A stretch of 23,694 nt of DNA. Origin: a virus. The notes under the pieces are model-generated. The model was not told the origin of the DNA. It saw only the letters and a list, made by a program, of their open reading frames with translations, and made no database searches. Position 1 is the stretch's first letter. Each line of letters starts with the position of its first letter. The stretch is taken from positions 1 to 23,694 of IMG/VR virus record IMGVR_UViG_3300034418_000629; one strand, written 5' to 3'. The position numbers and the translations under genes were made by a program. Positions 3,795 to 23,694 of the stretch are shown in pieces.

Positions 3795-5833
3795 AGCTAA
3801 CACTAGACGTAGAGAATGTAGGACAGAAGAGGGGTGGTAAGTTACACCTTGACCCCTTTGAGCCTGACAATTCTTTGACTATGATTGGTATGCTTACCGA
3901 TACAGGTGAAGAACGGCTGGTTACATTTGACCATCAGGATTGTCCACCTACCCCAAACGGACATGCTCTGGTACAAGAGTGGTTAGATAAGGCAACAGTA
4001 CTTATCATGCACAATGCCGCCCACGATTTGATGTGGCTATGGGAGTCAGGCTTTACATATGATGGTGCAGTCTTTGACACTATGCTTGCAGAGTATGTGT
4101 TACAACGTGGCCTGAAAGAACCACTAACGCTTGAGGCATGTGCTGAACGATATGAGTTGGCTACACAGAAGCAAGACAGTCTAAAGGAACACTTGAACAG
4201 TGGTGGCACAGCTTACAATATGAACTATCCTAAGTTGGCAGAGTACTTGTCTGCTGACATACATGCTACTCAGCAACTGTCTGACAGGCAGATGTACAAA
4301 CTAAATACCCCTGATGATGCAGGGCTTATGAATAGTGTGACACTTACTAATGAAGTGTGTGTTACTCTTGCTCGTATGTATCAACGGGGCTTTACTGTAG
4401 ACATGACAGCTTTACAGCAAGTTCATGACGAGTTTCTACAGGAGAAGGAGACATTGACCAATGAATTACAGGCTCACGTTAGGAATCTTATGGGCGATAG
4501 CCCTATTAATCTTAATAGTCCAGAACAACTATCTTGGGTAGTGTATGGACGTAAGGTGTTAGACAAACAGTATTGGGGCAATGCCATTGACCCTTACATG
4601 GATGATGCTGATTTCCGTAGCCTGATGTCTGCTGGTACAGAGCGTGTGTATAAGACTAAGGCAGAGCAGTGTACAGAATGTGATGGCACTGGCTACATAA
4701 GAAAGGTAAAGAAAGATGGAACACCATTTGCTAAGCCTAACAGATGTACGAATTGTAGTGGGTCTGGTTATTTGTTTGTATCTACTCAAGACTTGGCTGG
4801 ACTAAAGTTCAAACCACCGTCTGCTAAGTGGGCTAGTGCTAATGGATTTAGTACAAGCAAACAGAACCTTGAGATACTAGAAGGTGCTGCCAAGTCTAAA
4901 GGACTTACAGATGCGGTTGACTTTCTATCTAAGGTACGCAGATTGTCTGCAGTAGATACTTATCTATCATCCTTTGTTGAGGGCATACGTATGTTCACAA
5001 AGTCAGATGGTAAGTTGCATGTACGTTTGTTACAACACCGTACATCTACAGGTAGATTTAGTGGTGCTAACCCTAACATGCAGAACATGCCACGTGGCGG
5101 TACATTCCCTGTAAAGAAGGTGTTTGTATCTAGGTTTAATGGTGGTAAGATACTTGAAGCTGACATGGCACAGCTAGAGTTTCGTACTGCCGCATTCTTA
5201 TCACAAGATGGAGTAGCAATTGAGGAAGTATCTACTGGATTTGATGTACATGCATACACCGCTAAAGTTATTACTGATGCTGGTCAACCTACGAGTAGGC
5301 AGGATGCAAAAGCGCATACGTTTGCACCACTCTACGGAGCAACTGGATACGGAAGAACACCAGCGGAAGCAGCGTACTACACACACTTCAATGACAAATA
5401 CCAAGGGGTCGCAGTTTGGCATTCCCGATTGGCTAAAGAGGCTATAAACACAGGCAAGATTACTACACCATCAGGGCGTGAGTTCGCTTTCCCTGATATA
5501 GTTCGTAAGCACAACGGCAGGGTGTCTCACTTTACACAGATAAAGAACTACCCCGTGCAGTCGTTTGCTACAGCAGACATTGTACCCATTGCATTGCTTC
5601 ACATTGAACGCTTGCTAAAGGGTATGCAATCCTGTATAGTCAACACAGTGCATGATAGTATTGTTATTGACGTACACCCAGATGAAGAACAACAGGTAAT
5701 TGATTTAATCAACAAAACAAATGATGACCTACCAGATTTGATTACACTTAGATGGGGAATAAAGTTCAATGTTCCACTGTTACTAGAATCAAAAATAGGT
5801 CCGAATTGGCTTGACACTAAAGACGTTATCTGA
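3791..5833 (+). CDS. family A DNA polymerase with 3'-5' exonuclease and DnaJ-like zinc insert
   Basis: The protein is 680 aa. The exonuclease residues are Asp6/Glu8 (LDVE), Asp79 (HNAAHD) and Tyr152/Asp156 (YLSAD), so proofreading is probably intact. An insert with Cys294-x2-Cys297-DGTG and Cys319-x2-Cys322-SGSG resembles half of the DnaJ central zinc domain and lies between the exonuclease and palm. Polymerase motifs are RTSTGR (417-422), motif A (Asp458, EADMAQLE), motif B (Arg503, Lys507, Phe511, Tyr515-Gly516) and motif C (His621-Asp622-Ser623, where Pol I has HDE). Phe511 is the equivalent of E. coli Pol I Phe762. From memory, the DnaJ-like insert is described for phage HMO-2011. The gene is the core replicative enzyme of the phage. 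Confidence 0.97.
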   Translation: MKLTLDVENVGQKRGGKLHLDPFEPDNSLTMIGMLTDTGEERLVTFDHQDCPPTPNGHALVQEWLDKATVLIMHNAAHDLMWLWESGFTYDGAVFDTMLAEYVLQRGLKEPLTLEACAERYELATQKQDSLKEHLNSGGTAYNMNYPKLAEYLSADIHATQQLSDRQMYKLNTPDDAGLMNSVTLTNEVCVTLARMYQRGFTVDMTALQQVHDEFLQEKETLTNELQAHVRNLMGDSPINLNSPEQLSWVVYGRKVLDKQYWGNAIDPYMDDADFRSLMSAGTERVYKTKAEQCTECDGTGYIRKVKKDGTPFAKPNRCTNCSGSGYLFVSTQDLAGLKFKPPSAKWASANGFSTSKQNLEILEGAAKSKGLTDAVDFLSKVRRLSAVDTYLSSFVEGIRMFTKSDGKLHVRLLQHRTSTGRFSGANPNMQNMPRGGTFPVKKVFVSRFNGGKILEADMAQLEFRTAAFLSQDGVAIEEVSTGFDVHAYTAKVITDAGQPTSRQDAKAHTFAPLYGATGYGRTPAEAAYYTHFNDKYQGVAVWHSRLAKEAINTGKITTPSGREFAFPDIVRKHNGRVSHFTQIKNYPVQSFATADIVPIALLHIERLLKGMQSCIVNTVHDSIVIDVHPDEEQQVIDLINKTNDDLPDLITLRWGIKFNVPLLLESKIGPNWLDTKDVI

Positions 5834-17675: not shown

Positions 17676-18193
17676 TATACACTCCTAGACATTAAGCCAC
17701 CGATACGCTCTTCAGCAGCATTTTTCATATCTTCTATAGTTTTTTCAGATTCTTTAGGGTTCAATGCGCCTTCTTCATCTTCCCCCTCAGTTTCTATAAA
17801 TTTATCTTTCGCTAAATCAACAAGAGAACTTCTTATTTTCTTATCTTTTTCTAATCCAGAGTTATATTCTATTTTAGCTGAGTCACCGACAAGCATTATA
17901 AGTTCCACAAGAACAGGTAGCACTAACATACCTACATCAATTGTGTGTTTACCTTCCATGACAGCCGCAAGCTGCATAGTATTAGCAATCACTGTAACAG
18001 GAATACCAAGTTCCATCACGTCAAGAAGTTGCTCAGATACTTCATCTGATTGCAAACGAGGAATGTAATAGTCTAGTGCCTCTTCCACAGTATTATATTG
18101 CGGTGGACTTTGCCACGGCCTAGCACCCAACTCATGCGTCATAGACATGCCGGGAATAGGTGCATCAAGCATTGGTTGCATCAACTCAGCCAT
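17675..18193 (-). CDS. virion-associated protein with hydrophobic helices, 172 aa
   Basis: ATG 18193 has GAGGA 8 bases upstream and overlaps the previous gene by 8 bases. After a Pro-rich start (about 1-35), residues about 62-105 are hydrophobic (MELGIPVTVIANTMQLAAVM and TIDVGMLVLPVLVELIMLVG) and could be one or two membrane helices. The C-terminal part is charged (KDKFIETEGEDEEGALNPKE) and ends RIGGLMSRSV. The place among structural genes suggests a virion component that meets the host membrane during ejection, which is inferred. Confidence 0.7.
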   Translation of the reverse strand: MAELMQPMLDAPIPGMSMTHELGARPWQSPPQYNTVEEALDYYIPRLQSDEVSEQLLDVMELGIPVTVIANTMQLAAVMEGKHTIDVGMLVLPVLVELIMLVGDSAKIEYNSGLEKDKKIRSSLVDLAKDKFIETEGEDEEGALNPKESEKTIEDMKNAAEERIGGLMSRSV

Positions 18194-18413
18194 TACTTAT
18201 TTCCTCACGTTTAGCTTGAATCTGCTCAATGTAACTAGCCATACGCAATCTTGGCTCATCAATCCGCATGTTATTATCTACTTTTTGCATAGACTTTTTT
18301 GGCCCAAGAAGACCACCCTTATCTTGTATAGGCTGTTTTTTGGTTTGCTTTATTTTTTCCATATACATCATCATGTTTTGATGAGCAAGCGGTGTAGGGT
18401 CATTTAATGCCAC
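18186..18413 (-). CDS. small hypothetical protein, 75 aa, GTG start
   Basis: The frame is open further upstream, but the GTG at 18413 is preferred because GGAG lies 7 bases before it and it overlaps the end of the 738-aa gene by only 12 bases. The product is basic and Met-rich at the start (PTPLAHQNMMMYMEKIKQTK), has GGLLGPKK in the middle, and ends in a charged helix. No domain was recognised. It is conserved in operon position between structural genes and may be a minor virion or assembly protein. Confidence 0.6.
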   Translation of the reverse strand: MALNDPTPLAHQNMMMYMEKIKQTKKQPIQDKGGLLGPKKSMQKVDNNMRIDEPRLRMASYIEQIQAKREEISNG

Positions 18414-20616
18414 GTCTGTACTCCATCTCATGGTTTTTAATAATTTTATCCATAGCAAATTTTATAATCTTTTTTAGATAAGGTTTATCACTAATATACT
18501 CTGCAAACTTTTCGCCATGTTTAGCATAAATATTAAATAACCATTTTGGTGCTTTATTTGTCATCCAATTACGGAATAACAACCATGTATAATCTTGTGG
18601 TCCATACACTTCACGTGCAACCCAACAGAATTGTATCCAAGCACTGCCTAGTGTACCAATTAAACCACCAAGTGCTGAACCAGCAGCAGATCTACTTGCA
18701 GCTTTCTGGGCATCAGCTTGTGCGCTTGCACTTAACTGAGCAACAGCAAGATTACTCATTCTTTCTAATTCACCTTCAGCAGACTTCCATGCCCACTCCA
18801 TGCTATCAGCATAGTACGTCCACAGATTATCATATGCTTGTTTACTTACATCTAACACTGCACTAGCATTAAGTTCGTTAGCACGATTAACTGCAGCAGT
18901 ATCTGCGGTAGCAATTTCTCTACGCCACTGTGCATTACTTTGTGCAATTACAAGCTGGTTCTGCGCATTGAACTGGTCACGTTGGTTATTAAGTTCTGCG
19001 TTAAATCTTTCAATAGTATTTGTTTGACCAGCATTAAACTGAGACTGAGCATTTTGCTGTGACGCATTAAATTGTGCAGTTTGAGATTGTAAGTTAGCAA
19101 AGAACTGGTCCACTTGATTTTGCGAACTAGCATTAAATTGTTTAGCGGCATTTTCTGCAGATTGGTCTGTAAACAAAGATTGTACACGTTGCTGCGCACG
19201 AAACAATTCGGTCTGTTGTTGATTAGATAAGTTAGCCATATCAACTTGCAAGAAACTCTGTGCGTTCTGTACAGCAGCTTGCTGACGATTATTTAAATTC
19301 TGTGAATCTAACTGTGCTAATGCACTAGCCTCTGCCATAACCATTGCCTGTGAATTAGACAGGTTCTGCAGGTTCATTGTATTTGCTACACGAGAGTTTT
19401 CAAGAGCAACCTGCTGTTCAGCAGTAAAATTCATATTAGCTACATCAGCTATTCGTGCAGCGTTTTGTACTTTTGTTTGAAATGTCTGGTCAAACTCTTG
19501 ACCTAAGAACTTAGCACGTTGTTCTGCTGAAAGCATAGCAGATTGTTGGCGGTTTGACAAGTTCTGTTGTTCAAATTGTGCAATAATACTTGCATCTGCT
19601 TGCGCAATTGGAAGTGATGCTTCCATAGCTGCTTGTACAATAGCTTGACCAGCAATAGATGAAGCACTTAAACCACGTGCAGCCATCTGTTGATTAGCGA
19701 GTCTAACAGCACCAGCCGCCCATGCAGGTGGGTTAGTACCATTAAACTGCGTCATAAGATTTGCCATCTGACCTTGCACAAGAGCCTGTTGTGATGGCTG
19801 TGCTGACGCAGCAGCAGCTTGTGTAGCGGCAGTAGCCTGTGCAGCTTTAGTAGCATCTACACCAGTACCACTGATAAGTTCACCAGCCTGTATCTGACGC
19901 TGCTGTGGGTTATTCATCAGGATAGCATTACCCTGTGCTTCTTGAAGATTACCTACAGATGATACAGTTTGCTGTGCAGCAGTTACCTGCGCACGAGGGT
20001 CTTGAGGATTAGCTTGTGCGGCCTGTGTAGCATTCATAGCTGCATCAACAGCAGGTGCTACTTGTGTAGCTTGCACTTGATTAGCAGCAGTCTGTGCGGC
20101 AGGTGTGGCTTGCGCTGTGATAGCCTGTGCTGTACCTACAGCAACACCACCAGTAAGAACACCTGTAGTTGGGTCAACTTGCTGACCTGTAGTAATGGGT
20201 GTCATAGCAGCTTGTGTTACACCACCAGTGGGTACAGCAGGTTGATACATACGCTGTACAGTAGCATCACCAATGTTTAATTGCTGTGGAGTTGTTGGTG
20301 TTTGTGCTGTGGTTTGAGGTGTGGTAGCTTGTGTTGTAGGATTAGCCCCTGCTACATTAACAGTACCTGCAGTAAAAGGTGGGAAACTAGACTGTGCAGG
20401 AGCAGAGGCAGATGTTACAGTACCACCCGGTGCAAACTTCTGTACAGAACCACCCTTTGCCATCATACGTGCAGCATTGGTATATCTATCCATTTGTGCC
20501 TGACGTTGTGGGTCAGCCTCAACAAATCTTTGAAACTCCGCCATGTTGCCAGAGTAACCCATAGCACCTGCAATCTTGTTCATTGCCTCTGGCTTAAATG
20601 CCTTGAACTGCATCAT
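18400..20616 (-). CDS. Q/A-rich virion protein with hendecad repeats, 738 aa
   Basis: The start is ATG ATG at 20616/20613. Residues 1-60 (MMQFKAFKPEAMNKIAGAMG) form a conserved-looking head with an MAKGGSVQKFAPGG motif. Residues 65-340 are low-complexity Ala/Gln/Thr/Pro. Residues 352-571 form ten units of 22 residues, each two hendecads, marked by NL(S/N)N-x-QQ and QFNA. Residues about 640-662 are Gly/Ala-rich. The C-terminus holds CWVAREVYGPQDYTWLLFRN and a basic helical end (KKIIKFAMDKIIKNHE). The repeat predicts a long rod-like helical bundle. A tail, needle or internal channel protein is likely, but the exact role is unknown. The gene lies between fibre genes and the internal-protein genes. 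Confidence 0.85.
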   Translation of the reverse strand: MMQFKAFKPEAMNKIAGAMGYSGNMAEFQRFVEADPQRQAQMDRYTNAARMMAKGGSVQKFAPGGTVTSASAPAQSSFPPFTAGTVNVAGANPTTQATTPQTTAQTPTTPQQLNIGDATVQRMYQPAVPTGGVTQAAMTPITTGQQVDPTTGVLTGGVAVGTAQAITAQATPAAQTAANQVQATQVAPAVDAAMNATQAAQANPQDPRAQVTAAQQTVSSVGNLQEAQGNAILMNNPQQRQIQAGELISGTGVDATKAAQATAATQAAAASAQPSQQALVQGQMANLMTQFNGTNPPAWAAGAVRLANQQMAARGLSASSIAGQAIVQAAMEASLPIAQADASIIAQFEQQNLSNRQQSAMLSAEQRAKFLGQEFDQTFQTKVQNAARIADVANMNFTAEQQVALENSRVANTMNLQNLSNSQAMVMAEASALAQLDSQNLNNRQQAAVQNAQSFLQVDMANLSNQQQTELFRAQQRVQSLFTDQSAENAAKQFNASSQNQVDQFFANLQSQTAQFNASQQNAQSQFNAGQTNTIERFNAELNNQRDQFNAQNQLVIAQSNAQWRREIATADTAAVNRANELNASAVLDVSKQAYDNLWTYYADSMEWAWKSAEGELERMSNLAVAQLSASAQADAQKAASRSAAGSALGGLIGTLGSAWIQFCWVAREVYGPQDYTWLLFRNWMTNKAPKWLFNIYAKHGEKFAEYISDKPYLKKIIKFAMDKIIKNHEMEYRRGIK
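18904..19563 (-). repeat. coding hendecad repeat, ten 22-residue units
   Basis: In the 738-aa protein the motif NL(S/N)N-x-QQ or a variant recurs at residues 352, 396, 418, 440 and 462, and QFNA or a variant at 493, 504, 515, 526, 537, 548 and 559. The spacings within each series are 11 or multiples of 11 residues. The DNA copies are diverged, so this is an old protein-level repeat rather than a recent tandem duplication. Confidence 0.85.
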
Positions 20617-20618
20617 AA

Positions 20619-20768
20619 TTATTTACCTTTATACATATTCCAGAGTTTCCACGACACGTATATAATTGACAGCACACCAAATACCAGACCTACGTACTGA
20701 TTAAGTGCTGGCAACCAAAGCGGTGCGGAGATACCGCCTGTCGCTATGAGCAAATCATCTGGCTTCAT
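20619..20768 (-). CDS. small membrane protein, 49 aa (holin candidate)
   Basis: ATG 20768 overlaps the previous stop (TAATG), and TAA at 20619-20621 is 2 bases before the next gene. The product begins MKPDDLLIATGGISAPLW, then has one membrane helix (about residues 24-43, QYVGLVFGVLSIIYVSWKLW) and a short basic tail (NMYKGK). Short phage membrane proteins with a basic tail next to tail-fibre genes are often holins; T7 gp17.5 follows the fibre gene. No endolysin is adjacent, so holin is a guess; a virion membrane peptide is the alternative. Confidence 0.65.
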   Translation of the reverse strand: MKPDDLLIATGGISAPLWLPALNQYVGLVFGVLSIIYVSWKLWNMYKGK

Positions 20769-20953: not shown

Positions 20954-22050
20954 TATAGTTCAGCACTCCAAGCTAAGTATGAATCTGTAGTTCCAAATCT
21001 AAAAGCTGCGGCTTCGCCAGTTGTCATTCCAGATGACACAGTGCATCTTATACGAGCCGCCACTAAATTTGCGCTGCCAAAAGTAGGAACAGCAGAACAA
21101 GTAGTTTGTCCTTGCGCACGTTGAATTTTATAATCTGTTGCAGTTCCTGTTTGCTCAAGTGCTGTTGGGTAAGTCCTCATAGTTACTTGAAAAGGAATAG
21201 TAAGGTCTATCAGAGTAGAACTGCTTTGGTATCCAGACCCAATTATTTCATCAGCATTTAATGCGGCATCAACTTTATAATAATACCGCTGACACCTAGC
21301 CAACTCATCCCCATAAGACCGATGCTCAAATGGTGTGGCCTGTTCGCCTATTTCCATTTGCAATCCAGAGATTTGCCAATAATTAGATGTAGCATCAGCA
21401 AGGTTTACGTTTAACCCTGCGCCTCTGTCTGCATTTGTTTTGGCTTCCCAAGCTGTAGGAACTGCGCCTGATGAATTGTCAGTGCCAGCCACTAACGCAA
21501 AGAATACAGCAAAGCTATCACCATTGTCGTTATCAAGCGCACCTGTAGTATCACCAGCAAGTGTAACAGTTACCTTCTGCCAAGTGTTAGCTGTTGAAAC
21601 TGTGTAAGTTGAGCCAATAATTCTAATGTTGTCATTGTCCTCAACATGAACCTGATAAGTACCTGTCTTGTTTGTACGCACATAAAATGAAAGGGTTATG
21701 CTTTCAGCGGAAGACGTTCCTTTCTTTAGCTGTTGTAAGTTCTGACCTTCTAGGTGCTGAAGAATGAACAATCTGCTATCAGAAGCAAGACTGCTTTTTG
21801 CTGTAGTGCATTCAACTTTGAAACTATTAGCAAAACCATCAGGCGCATCTGTGCTTTGAGAAACAGTCCACGTTCCCGCATCTGTATAAAGAAACTTGAA
21901 GCGGTCACAAGCATGATAGCCTGTTGAGGTAACACTTGAAGTTGAGGTTCCCCTCTGTGCAACCTGCATCGCACCATTGATAATCATATTCCTGTTTGAC
22001 AGGGCTGTTTGCGAACCTATCAGTGCGGCTAGTTCTGCTGCTTTACTCAT
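20953..22050 (-). CDS. tail-fibre / carbohydrate-binding-like protein, 365 aa
   Basis: ATG 22050 overlaps the upstream stop (ATGA), with GGAG 7 bases before it. Residues 1-35 (MSKAAELAALIGSQTALSNR plus NMIINGAMQVAQRGTS) form a conserved phage tail-protein head. Residues about 50-235 read as a beta-sandwich similar to carbohydrate-binding modules (SITLSFYVRTNKTGTYQV; TWQKVTVTLAGDT; NYWQISGLQMEIGEQATPFE). The C-terminal part begins YGDELARCQRYYYKV, typical of such fibre proteins. It probably binds surface sugars of the host as part of the adsorption device. Confidence 0.82.
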   Translation of the reverse strand: MSKAAELAALIGSQTALSNRNMIINGAMQVAQRGTSTSSVTSTGYHACDRFKFLYTDAGTWTVSQSTDAPDGFANSFKVECTTAKSSLASDSRLFILQHLEGQNLQQLKKGTSSAESITLSFYVRTNKTGTYQVHVEDNDNIRIIGSTYTVSTANTWQKVTVTLAGDTTGALDNDNGDSFAVFFALVAGTDNSSGAVPTAWEAKTNADRGAGLNVNLADATSNYWQISGLQMEIGEQATPFEHRSYGDELARCQRYYYKVDAALNADEIIGSGYQSSSTLIDLTIPFQVTMRTYPTALEQTGTATDYKIQRAQGQTTCSAVPTFGSANLVAARIRCTVSSGMTTGEAAAFRFGTTDSYLAWSAEL

Positions 22051-22451
22051 GCTAGGTCTCCGTGGATAAGCATAGTTGTATTATCGGGGTCCATTCTCCC
22101 TGCGTTACTAGAGGATACACCATTCCAAGCGTATATTTCACCTGTTCTGTATGAGCCTGTTGCGTAGGCTTGATTTTGGTCAGATAAAAGAACTTGATGA
22201 CCAGAATAATAACCAAATACATTTGCTACATAACTAGCATTACCCATACTGGTCGTATAATTTAACGAGTAATCGCCTAGTGCGTTATCAGTAAGACTGC
22301 TTTGATTGAAGCTGTCATCAGCCGCAAGAGTGGCATCGCTACCATCAAAATGAACCCACGCCTTCGCACTTCCCCCTGCCACATAAGCCATGCCAACAGA
22401 GTTATTACCACTGGCATCCTTCAGGGTGTTTACTCTTAGTTCGCTTGCCAT
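22047..22451 (-). CDS. small tail protein, paralogue 3 of 3 (134 aa)
   Basis: The N-terminus MASELRVNTLKDASGNNSV is a head I recognise from many marine phage tail proteins. The core KAWVHFDG...DSFNQSSLTDNALGDYSLNYT aligns with the cores of the two upstream genes, and the protein ends HGDLA. It is probably a beta-rich receptor-binding or fibre-tip domain encoded as a separate polypeptide. Its ribosome-binding site (GGAG) lies in the codons for GDLA of the upstream gene, and the same holds for the gene downstream. Confidence 0.8.
   Translation of the reverse strand: MASELRVNTLKDASGNNSVGMAYVAGGSAKAWVHFDGSDATLAADDSFNQSSLTDNALGDYSLNYTTSMGNASYVANVFGYYSGHQVLLSDQNQAYATGSYRTGEIYAWNGVSSSNAGRMDPDNTTMLIHGDLA
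22048..22061 (-). repeat. seam repeat, copy 3 (short)
   Basis: On the - strand this reads GGAGACCTAGCATG. It encodes the GDLA end of the third paralogue and supplies the ribosome-binding site and start of the 365-aa fibre protein. It matches the first 13 bases of the copy at 22443-22465. Confidence 0.7.
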
Positions 22452-22465
22452 TATGCTAGGTCTCC
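22443..22465 (-). repeat. seam repeat, copy 2
   Basis: On the - strand GGAGACCTAGCATAATGG plus GCAAGC-type codons span the end of paralogue 2 (GDLA), its stop, and the ATG plus first codons (MAS) of paralogue 3. It differs from the copy at 22865-22887 at 1 of 23 positions. Confidence 0.75.
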
Positions 22466-22873
22466 ATAGGTTTGCATAGAGTGATAGTCACCATCCTGAC
22501 TACTAAAAGTATTGTTTCCTATACCGCATCTGTAGTAGCCTGTGCCATGTTCGCCAGCACCGTTATTTGAACTCATCCAAGTAGCATATCCAGACGCACC
22601 ATCACCGCCACTATCTGACGATGCGTAATGCAAGTGCGAATGATTGTTTGTGAAGTTTATATTTGTTTGACCTGTTCCTTGATCAGAAAGACTAGATACA
22701 TTAAGGCTATCATTACTTTTTTGTGCTGTACCACTGTCAGTATGATATGCAATATAGCTTTTAGTCAAACCTTCTGTAAGCGAAAAAGTCACGTTCCCGC
22801 CACCGTCAGTAACAGTAATGTTGCCAGCCGCTGTGTTACCTCTTAGGTCATCTACTTTAAGTATGCTTGCCAT
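22451..22873 (-). CDS. small tail protein, paralogue 2 of 3 (140 aa)
   Basis: It starts MASILKVDDLRGNTAAGNIT, close to the head of the next gene, and ends YGDLA. The core DSLNVSSLSDQGTGQTNINFT aligns with the DS(L/F)N...SSLTD core of its neighbours. The C-terminal half is Gly/Ser/His-rich (NNHSHLHYASSDSGGDGASG and GEHGTGYYRCGIGNN) and differs from both paralogues. This suggests a fast-changing receptor-facing part. The TAATG overlap with the upstream gene and AGGAG upstream support the start. Confidence 0.8.
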   Translation of the reverse strand: MASILKVDDLRGNTAAGNITVTDGGGNVTFSLTEGLTKSYIAYHTDSGTAQKSNDSLNVSSLSDQGTGQTNINFTNNHSHLHYASSDSGGDGASGYATWMSSNNGAGEHGTGYYRCGIGNNTFSSQDGDYHSMQTYGDLA

Positions 22874-22887
22874 TATGCGAGGTCTCC
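22865..22887 (-). repeat. seam repeat, copy 1
   Basis: On the - strand GGAGACCTCGCATAATGG plus GCAAGC-type codons span the GDLA end of paralogue 1 and the start of paralogue 2. Only 1 of 23 positions differs from the copy at 22443-22465, although the gene bodies between them differ much more. Confidence 0.75.
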
Positions 22888-23262
22888 TAAAACTAAGGCA
22901 CGATTTTCAATAGAGTCAACGTAACTGCCAATATAACTGTCAAAAGCATATACTGTTGTTGTACGAGAAATTCTATTTTCTACAGCGATACCATGTGATT
23001 GATTCCCAGCAAAACCAGCGGAAGCAAATCCATTAGAATAACCTGAAGCAGTGTAATTTGTATCCGTAAACGCACTAGCCATTGTTACATTAAATTTTCC
23101 TGTAGCGGTATCTGTAAGACTACTAAAATTTAAAGAATCTCTTGCGGTAGTGCCAGCCATACTAAAATTAACAAATGCTTTTGGTGCATTTTGCTTAGTC
23201 AACTCAACAGGTGACGTACCATCCTTTGCCGCAATGCTATCTACATTCAGTACACTGGTCAT
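22873..23262 (-). CDS. small tail protein, paralogue 1 of 3 (129 aa)
   Basis: ATG 23262 was chosen: GGAG lies 7 bases upstream and it overlaps the previous stop (ATGA). A TTG start 12 bases earlier is unlikely. The head MTSVLNVDSIAAKDGTSPVE resembles those of the two following genes. The core KAFVNFSMAGTTARDSLNFS followed by SLTDTATGKFNVTM is the clearest copy of the shared domain, and the end is LVLGDLA. It is probably a beta-rich tail or fibre-tip protein. Confidence 0.8.
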   Translation of the reverse strand: MTSVLNVDSIAAKDGTSPVELTKQNAPKAFVNFSMAGTTARDSLNFSSLTDTATGKFNVTMASAFTDTNYTASGYSNGFASAGFAGNQSHGIAVENRISRTTTVYAFDSYIGSYVDSIENRALVLGDLA

Positions 23263-23694
23263 ACGATACTCCAATAACCGTTAACAGTCACGGTTGCGTT
23301 CTGTGTGATTGGCCCAGCCGATACGCCATTCTCATCGCTGTCAATCGTAATGTTCGCAGAGATAGTCTGACCATTCAAACGGATGATGCTGTCATTTCCC
23401 TTAAACGGGTAGCGGGTATCTGATTCAGTCTTGGTGTACGAATTAGCAATGCTAAACGTATCATACGATACCATCTCAACTATGTCATTCAGACTTGCCC
23501 CTGTGACCAGCACAACGCTTGTGCCTGTTGTGGCAGCGTAGTCAGTACCCGGCTTGAGCAGCACACCATTCTGATACACGTCTAAGTACAAGCTATCCTG
23601 ATAGGTTAGTGTCTTACTGTCTGCGTCACTACCACTAAAGCTAGTCTGACCAGCAGTAGCTTGGTAGACAAAGCGGTTGCGAACACCGAACTCT
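23259..23694 (-). CDS. tail-fibre protein, C-terminal part (5' partial)
   Basis: The frame stays open to the window edge, so the N-terminus lies beyond 23694; about 144 residues are visible. The stretch GVRNRFVYQATAGQTSFSGS, then YLDVYQNGVLLKPGTDYAAT and SLNDIVEMVSYDTFSIANS, is a repeat module I know from phage tail fibres and neck-appendage proteins. It is followed by a YTKTESDTRYPFKGN linker and a C-terminal beta region. It is the first visible gene of the late arm and probably the main fibre that carries or precedes the small paralogues. Confidence 0.85.
   Translation of the reverse strand, partial: EFGVRNRFVYQATAGQTSFSGSDADSKTLTYQDSLYLDVYQNGVLLKPGTDYAATTGTSVVLVTGASLNDIVEMVSYDTFSIANSYTKTESDTRYPFKGNDSIIRLNGQTISANITIDSDENGVSAGPITQNATVTVNGYWSIV

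Follow-up and report, generated by a model that had tools for sequence, protein, structure and literature searches.

The tail-fibre end of the window

The window, that is the whole stretch of DNA analysed here, comprises 23,694 bases and corresponds to the entire IMG/VR record. Genes for a tyrosine integrase, a DnaB-type helicase, a family A DNA polymerase, a Cas4-domain exonuclease, a T7-type endonuclease I and a ribonucleotide reductase are located on the plus strand, and the structural genes on the minus strand, among them one for a 738-aa protein with 62% identity to gp25 of phage HMO-2011 over 99% of its length. Homologues of gp25 and gp28 surround the array described below and the replication module is of the same type as in HMO-2011; judging from this gene content, the window is a fragment of an HMO-2011-like podovirus. 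The tyrosine integrase (893-1792) suggests a temperate ancestry or lifestyle, which could bring the tail-gene arrays of prophages and phages together.

The array lies at the extreme end of the window and is made up of three small genes, C3, C2 and C1, followed by a gp28-like fibre gene (Table 1). Each of the three, called cassettes below, has an N-terminal head and a C-terminal body. The preliminary description regarded them as consecutive paralogues sharing a head (M-A/T-S-x-L-x-V), a core (DS(L/F)NxSSL(T/S)D) and a GDLA end. These elements are present in all three ORFs, and all three match the tail-fibre family phrog_11355 in profile searches; the gene downstream of the last seam, on the other hand, is not a paralogue.

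Table 1 Features of the cassette array and its neighbours (positions in the window)
Feature	Position	Strand	Remarks
gp33-like gene before slot a	23259..23693	minus	partial, cut by window end
Cassette C3, slot a, head MTSVLNVD, 129 aa, GDLA end	22873..23262	minus	phrog_11355, 4.8e-15 (6-124)
Seam B of C3 (LTKQNAPK), approximate limits	23179..23205	minus	identity to L036 starts here
Portable body of C3	22875..23201	minus	97.9% identical over 327 nt in L036, slot f there
Seam A C3/C2: GDLA codons, stop, GGAG ribosome-binding site, next start	22865..22887	minus	GGAGACCTCGCATAATGGCAAGC
Cassette C2, slot b, head MASILKVD, 140 aa, GDLA end	22451..22873	minus	phrog_11355, 3.3e-5 (16-86 only)
Seam B of C2 (around TEGLTK), approximate limits	22760..22785	minus	conserved Lys codon position
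Seam A C2/C1	22443..22465	minus	GGAGACCTAGCATAATGGCAAGC
Cassette C1, slot c, head MASELRVNTL, 134 aa, GDLA end	22047..22451	minus	phrog_11355, 2e-12 (21-130)
Seam B of C1 (around GGSAK), approximate limits	22362..22387	minus	conserved Lys codon position
Seam A C1/gp28-like gene, ATGA overlap form, 14 bases	22048..22061	minus	GGAGACCTAGCATG
gp28-like tail fibre after slot c, 365 aa	20953..22050	minus	phrog_4492, 1.2e-62

The distribution of the family was studied with a profile built from the window proteins, their HMO-2011 homologues and IMG/VR searches. This profile recovered 1,191 members in 276 of 318 distinct viral loci. The exact GDLA end is found in 1,072 of the 1,160 members with a readable end, and at position four counted from the C-terminus the residue entropy decreases from about 3.1 bits to 0.3-0.5. 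The DSLN core motif, searched as a regular expression, occurs in only 373 of the 1,191 members. The beta-domain also exists without GDLA in Vibrio, Pseudomonas and Manatee Spring phages, hence GDLA is not required for membership of the family. Among isolates, the Microcystis cyanophage Mel-JY33 keeps GGAGACCTCGCATGA in two of its three tandem members; at L381:2498-3626, two of these cassettes end in CACGGAGACCTCGCATGA, with the seam as in marine phages. A tblastn search with C2 gave no match in an isolate phage. The Roseobacter RCA phages CRP-1, -2, -9, -13, -207, -345 and -603, as well as HTVC103P (L373-L380), have homologous backbones and carry longer fibre genes instead of cassettes at the homologous locus. 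The serial arrangement of cassettes, hereafter the rack, is thus not general to HMO-2011-type phages.

The AlphaFold2 model of C1 (93 natural sequences, mean pLDDT 84.7) consists of an extended head at residues 1-30 and a beta-domain at residues 31-130, so that the two seams described in the next section flank the domain. The model of C2 (57 sequences, mean pLDDT 78.1) has the same strand order, and both models match the same predicted viral proteins in BFVD, some of which are annotated as tail fibres; the predictions thus indicate a common fold. A fold search against the PDB gave no significant match. By analogy with the usual layout of tail fibres, the slot-specific heads probably dock the protein on the tail and the exchangeable bodies probably contact the host surface.

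Two conserved seams

The first seam, seam A, joins the end of each cassette to the beginning of the next gene and has the conserved form GGAGACYTNGCATAATG. As reported in the preliminary description, the C3/C2 and C2/C1 seams are identical at 22 of 23 positions, a 14-base form recurs at 22048-22061 and the GDLA codons hold the GGAG of the following gene; the leucine codon that it gave, CTA, does not apply throughout, being CTC at the C3/C2 junction. Dinucleotide shuffling of the window (100 shuffles) never produced the seam pattern, which the window itself has twice. Beyond the window, a scan of IMG/VR found at least 120 matching stretches, and 84,980 bacterial and archaeal genomes yielded one match. 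This single match, an exact one, is found in PAHC01000002.1, a contig of a Rhodobiaceae MAG with two GDLA cassettes (L385:1-677). It is probably a phage contig binned into the MAG, and could point to a host group. In 2.26 Mb of sequence, the motif coincides with 987 cassette stops and has 40 further matches, most of the inspected ones being incomplete cassette ends at contig edges. The sequence GAGACC, which is the BsaI recognition sequence, is contained in every seam of the window (22048-22061, 22443-22465 and 22865-22887). This is probably a coincidence, but a host restriction system of BsaI specificity would act near each seam.

Seam A is sharply bounded. At the first G of GGAGAC, the nucleotide entropy goes from 1.9 bits down to 0.2, and it mostly stays low up to the stop and the overlapping start. 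The bodies are the most variable part of the cassettes, and the picture of conserved seams around variable bodies is supported. Among 907 unique GDLA ends, 891 overlap the next start (TAATG in 579, ATGA in 312) and only three lack a downstream start. Seam A thus unites the C-terminus and stop of one gene with the Shine-Dalgarno sequence and start of the next, and a swapped body would leave the next gene in frame and translatable. The use of GGA (99% at the seam) is accounted for by the likely Shine-Dalgarno GGAG. The other codon choices exceed what this element explains: GAC represents 91% of the codons at the seam versus 36% in bodies, GCA 92% versus 36%, and, for leucine, CTC 45% versus 4%, CTG being nearly absent (0.1% versus 14%). 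As to the concern that translation signals alone might explain the conservation of third codon positions, a ribosome-binding site does not account for these choices. GDLA is also constrained as protein, as the wobble variant GAT was found 73 times versus eight times for GAA, which encodes Glu.

A second seam became apparent from the ends of blastn matches. In all-against-all comparisons inside arrays, 63% of the left ends were within 30 nt of the seam, compared with 7.6% of random positions. The right ends were mostly located 40-120 nt inside the gene or right at its end; there were none at 160-340 nt. Their position relative to the gene start revealed seam B, which is situated some 30 codons from that start, in the part of the head that immediately precedes the beta-domain, and reads LTKQSAAKAW in several slots. 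The DSLN core was considered as the site of the right-hand breakpoints and rejected, as only 0-2% of them are there and seam B is upstream of it. Seam B was located by pattern, a procedure that missed 99 cassettes. Breakpoint zones were defined as GDLA to the next start for seam A and as the conserved Lys codon ±24 nt for seam B. Considering matches of at least 95% identity, the two seams make up 23% of the length and contain 165 of 196 breakpoints (84%), whereas the body interiors make up 63% of the length and contain six (3%), these counts being of non-independent events. Breakpoint density is 0.33/kb in arrays versus 0.06/kb outside, in loci that were selected for having cassettes. The preliminary description had anticipated breakpoints at the seams of relatives; this was borne out, although seam B had escaped it.

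The clustering of breakpoints may be explained in several ways. Since recombinants that broke elsewhere might be lost by selection, a homology-driven crossover is not proven by breakpoint position alone. One possibility is that recombination is illegitimate or random, that selection keeps the joins at domain or gene borders, and that the seam owes its conservation to translation coupling and to the GDLA tail. The nearly universal overlap of GDLA ends with a start and the protein-level constraint on GDLA are congruent with such a scenario, as is the short identity at seam B, where the exact run common to same-slot genes from different phages has a median of only 8 nt (95th percentile 20). Nevertheless, seam B lies inside the reading frame, in a conserved stretch where breakpoints cluster in both directions, and the preference for CTC and GAC and the avoidance of CTG at seam A exceed the Shine-Dalgarno element. 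Moreover, the median exact run at seam A is 16 nt (95th percentile 37), well above the mid-body control (median 6 nt, 95th percentile 8). Random recombination filtered by selection hence seems unlikely, although it deserves consideration. Alternatively, a dedicated site-specific recombinase could recognize seam A, given its very sharp nucleotide conservation beyond the needs of translation and the tyrosine integrase encoded by the phage. Yet, breakpoints also fall at seam B, which shares no such motif; integrases usually act at a single attachment site and seam A is not an inverted repeat, so this explanation appears highly improbable. An invertible segment of the Gin/Pin type, which would have inverted repeats and a serine invertase, agrees neither with the direct orientation of the seams nor with the recombinase found, a tyrosine integrase.

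Fixed slots and replaced bodies

The heads fall into a few types and define slots. Each head type occurs about once per contig: slot c (MASELRVNTL) 184 times in 184 contigs, slot a 183 times in 182 contigs and slot b 175 times in 174, and likewise the rarer slots d (85 in 85) and e (69 in 69). Slot a is succeeded by slot b in 133 cases and slot b by slot c in 135, and a gp28-like gene starting with MSKAA, MTKAA or MSNAA comes after slot c in 141 of 177. In the 21 loci that span the full rack, the order is gp41, F/G, D, E, gp36, gp35, optional genes, gp33, A, B, C and gp28/H; some slots are unassigned or missing, and the number of cassettes ranges from five to eight, most often six. Not a single contig contained the same body twice. 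Duplication and loss of whole cassettes, which the preliminary description had envisaged together with exchange, was accordingly rejected as the main process, with no repeated body, single head types, a constant order and a number limited to 5-8; it can only be minor. Exchange itself does take place, but it concerns the C-terminal bodies between the two seams and not freely shuffled whole cassettes. An array without exchange would be expected to keep its number and order and to lack breakpoints at the seams; here the order is fixed, but the number varies and the breakpoints are at the seams. In HMO-2011, the B position (gp30-gp31, L034:8503-9277) is occupied, beside an assembly-type gp30, by gp31, which contains a C1q domain, has a B-like head and lacks GDLA. 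It seems that a different fold can be loaded in the same slot.

Whole-body replacement is directly visible in pairs of closely related contigs. Identity between L115 and L116 reaches 98.8% across 2,905 nt in one flank and 97.6% across 3,557 nt in the other, and between these flanks a single body differs, with 27% amino-acid identity; the match ends in LTKQSA and returns at GGAGACCTCGC. Three further near-identical pairs (L101/L164, L185/L197 and L277/L280) likewise differ by one body between seams, and L088 and L305 by three consecutive bodies. In a sample of 251 same-slot pairs, again non-independent, in which the head and the downstream 60 nt were both at least 90% identical, the bodies fell under 70% identity in 212 pairs and reached 90% or more in 39, with no intermediate (70-90%) case, which indicates replacement rather than gradual divergence. 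Fast divergence of the bodies by mutation under selection, with constrained heads and seams and no exchange, would agree with the fact that, in every slot, variation is highest in the bodies (mean nucleotide identities of 59-60%, versus 66-79% for heads). The absence of intermediates among the 251 pairs, the sharp edges at the seams and the existence of near-identical bodies in different contexts and slots nevertheless make it hardly credible. The pattern does not fit mutagenesis by a diversity-generating retroelement either, which would copy point changes from a template repeat into a fixed variable region: the bodies are either at least 90% or less than 70% identical (0/251 between) and differ in length. 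As in modular receptor-binding proteins, the N-terminus is conserved and the C-terminus is replaced as a unit. This unit is the C-terminal beta-domain between seams A and B and not the whole gene.

Bodies have also moved between phages and sometimes between slots. Among 147 body clusters shared by at least two contigs, the next gene differs in 22 of 135 usable clusters, the upstream sequence in 32 of 145 and the head in 12 of 147, and 13 clusters span differently labelled slots. The bodies are not freely portable, as pairs with at least 70% amino-acid identity are found in the same slot in 243 cases and in different slots in 89, when 18% same-slot pairs would be expected at random. The C3 body recurs, with both seams, in L036, behind the slot-f head MSTLKADTIQ and before a slot-d gene, so that the window's own cassette shows between-slot portability. 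The closest relative of the window in the set, L016, is 99.9% identical to it over 2,833 nt in the gp25-like region (window 17936-20768) and 93.5% identical upstream of the C3 seam B; all three bodies and the gp28-like fibre differ. In L016, after position 4199, a 178-aa protein replaces the gp28-like fibre directly after the seam, with a similar MSNAADLA start and a different sequence thereafter.

All the evidence for shuffling comes from metagenome assemblies, in which chimeras are possible, and what the isolates HMO-2011 and Mel-JY33 confirm is limited to architecture and seam and does not extend to recent swaps. The swaps might thus be assembly artefacts, strains having been joined at seams that are repeated within and between genomes; indeed, the swap pairs are all metagenome contigs. 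However, each swap would require two false joins some 250-330 nt apart, and identical junctions recur in separate metagenomes (L100/L101; L186/L197; L014/L016; window/L035). Furthermore, the body interiors differ and the seams do not, the flanks have their own 1-3% differences and the isolate genome of HMO-2011 has the same architecture with five different bodies. An artefactual origin of the swaps is consequently very unlikely.

A proposed rack of exchangeable bodies and its known relatives

The best explanation of these results, and one that we consider probable, is a fixed rack of slots whose bodies are exchanged by homology-dependent recombination at seams A and B. According to this proposal, about six tail-protein slots would form a fixed rack in HMO-2011-like podoviruses; each slot would be set by an N-terminal head of some 30-40 residues and would hold an exchangeable C-terminal beta-domain of about 95 residues, and co-infecting phages may trade single bodies or runs of bodies by recombination between the two joints. 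It is likely that recombination uses the seams as homology, and we infer that homology drives the crossovers and that phage recombination enzymes make them, the exonuclease and the T7-type endonuclease I of the window being a plausible set. With another enzyme set, phage recombinases have been measured to carry out relaxed homologous recombination between regions in which the longest perfect identity is tens of bases (PMC3945230). In this proposal, the bodies would bind receptors and their swaps would change the host range. A further step would be that the GGAGACYTNGCATAATG seam, shared by HMO-2011-like phages and even by a Microcystis phage, is kept partly as a recombination joint, under second-order selection for exchangeability, in which case a phage with the seam could exchange bodies with every other phage that has a rack; we regard this as possible, though doubtful. 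The rack makes it directly testable whether the sequence of a module border can be selected for exchangeability.

Direct homologues of the cassettes are found in the gp28-gp43 region of HMO-2011 (NC_021864) and in phrog_11355, with the same GDLA seams, between a gp43-type fibre and gp28; in the isolate record, these genes are annotated singly as tail fibres or hypothetical proteins. No description of the rack, of its slots and seam or of an exchange of bodies was found in a search of the published literature that did not extend to the original HMO-2011 genome paper. Among the nearest published patterns is the mosaicism of receptor-binding protein domains: a conserved N-terminal attachment part is combined with an exchangeable C-terminal part that has been shuffled recently (Smug et al. 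2023, PMC10684548). The proteins treated in the available part of that study are mostly single multi-domain proteins with no common seam, whereas the rack is a multi-slot array in which one 3' seam is common to all slots and also starts the next gene. Tail-fibre variants are likewise exchanged between conserved flanks by recombination in tailocin loci such as that of Pectobacterium carotovoricin (PMC13195805). That system has one locus, with an invertase in some strains, and neither a slot array nor a shared translation-coupled seam is described. Finally, tail-fibre, C1q and lectin genes are hypervariable in the metaviromic islands of abundant marine phages, including predicted SAR116 phages (PMC3909814). 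These islands are seen as under-recruitment of reads, and the available part of the source gives no seam, slot or exchange unit for them.

If the rack works as proposed, its roughly six separate adhesion slots would represent a standard interface, each slot being reloadable by one short recombination event, and it would provide a concrete mechanism for the hypervariable tail regions of marine viromes that needs neither a reverse transcriptase nor an invertase. A comparable case is the gp38 adhesin of T-even phages, in which conserved glycine-rich motifs flank hypervariable receptor-binding segments and may serve recombination. Yet, gp38 is one adhesin gene with internal motifs, while the rack is made up of separate genes in series, with a seam that lies across the gene border.
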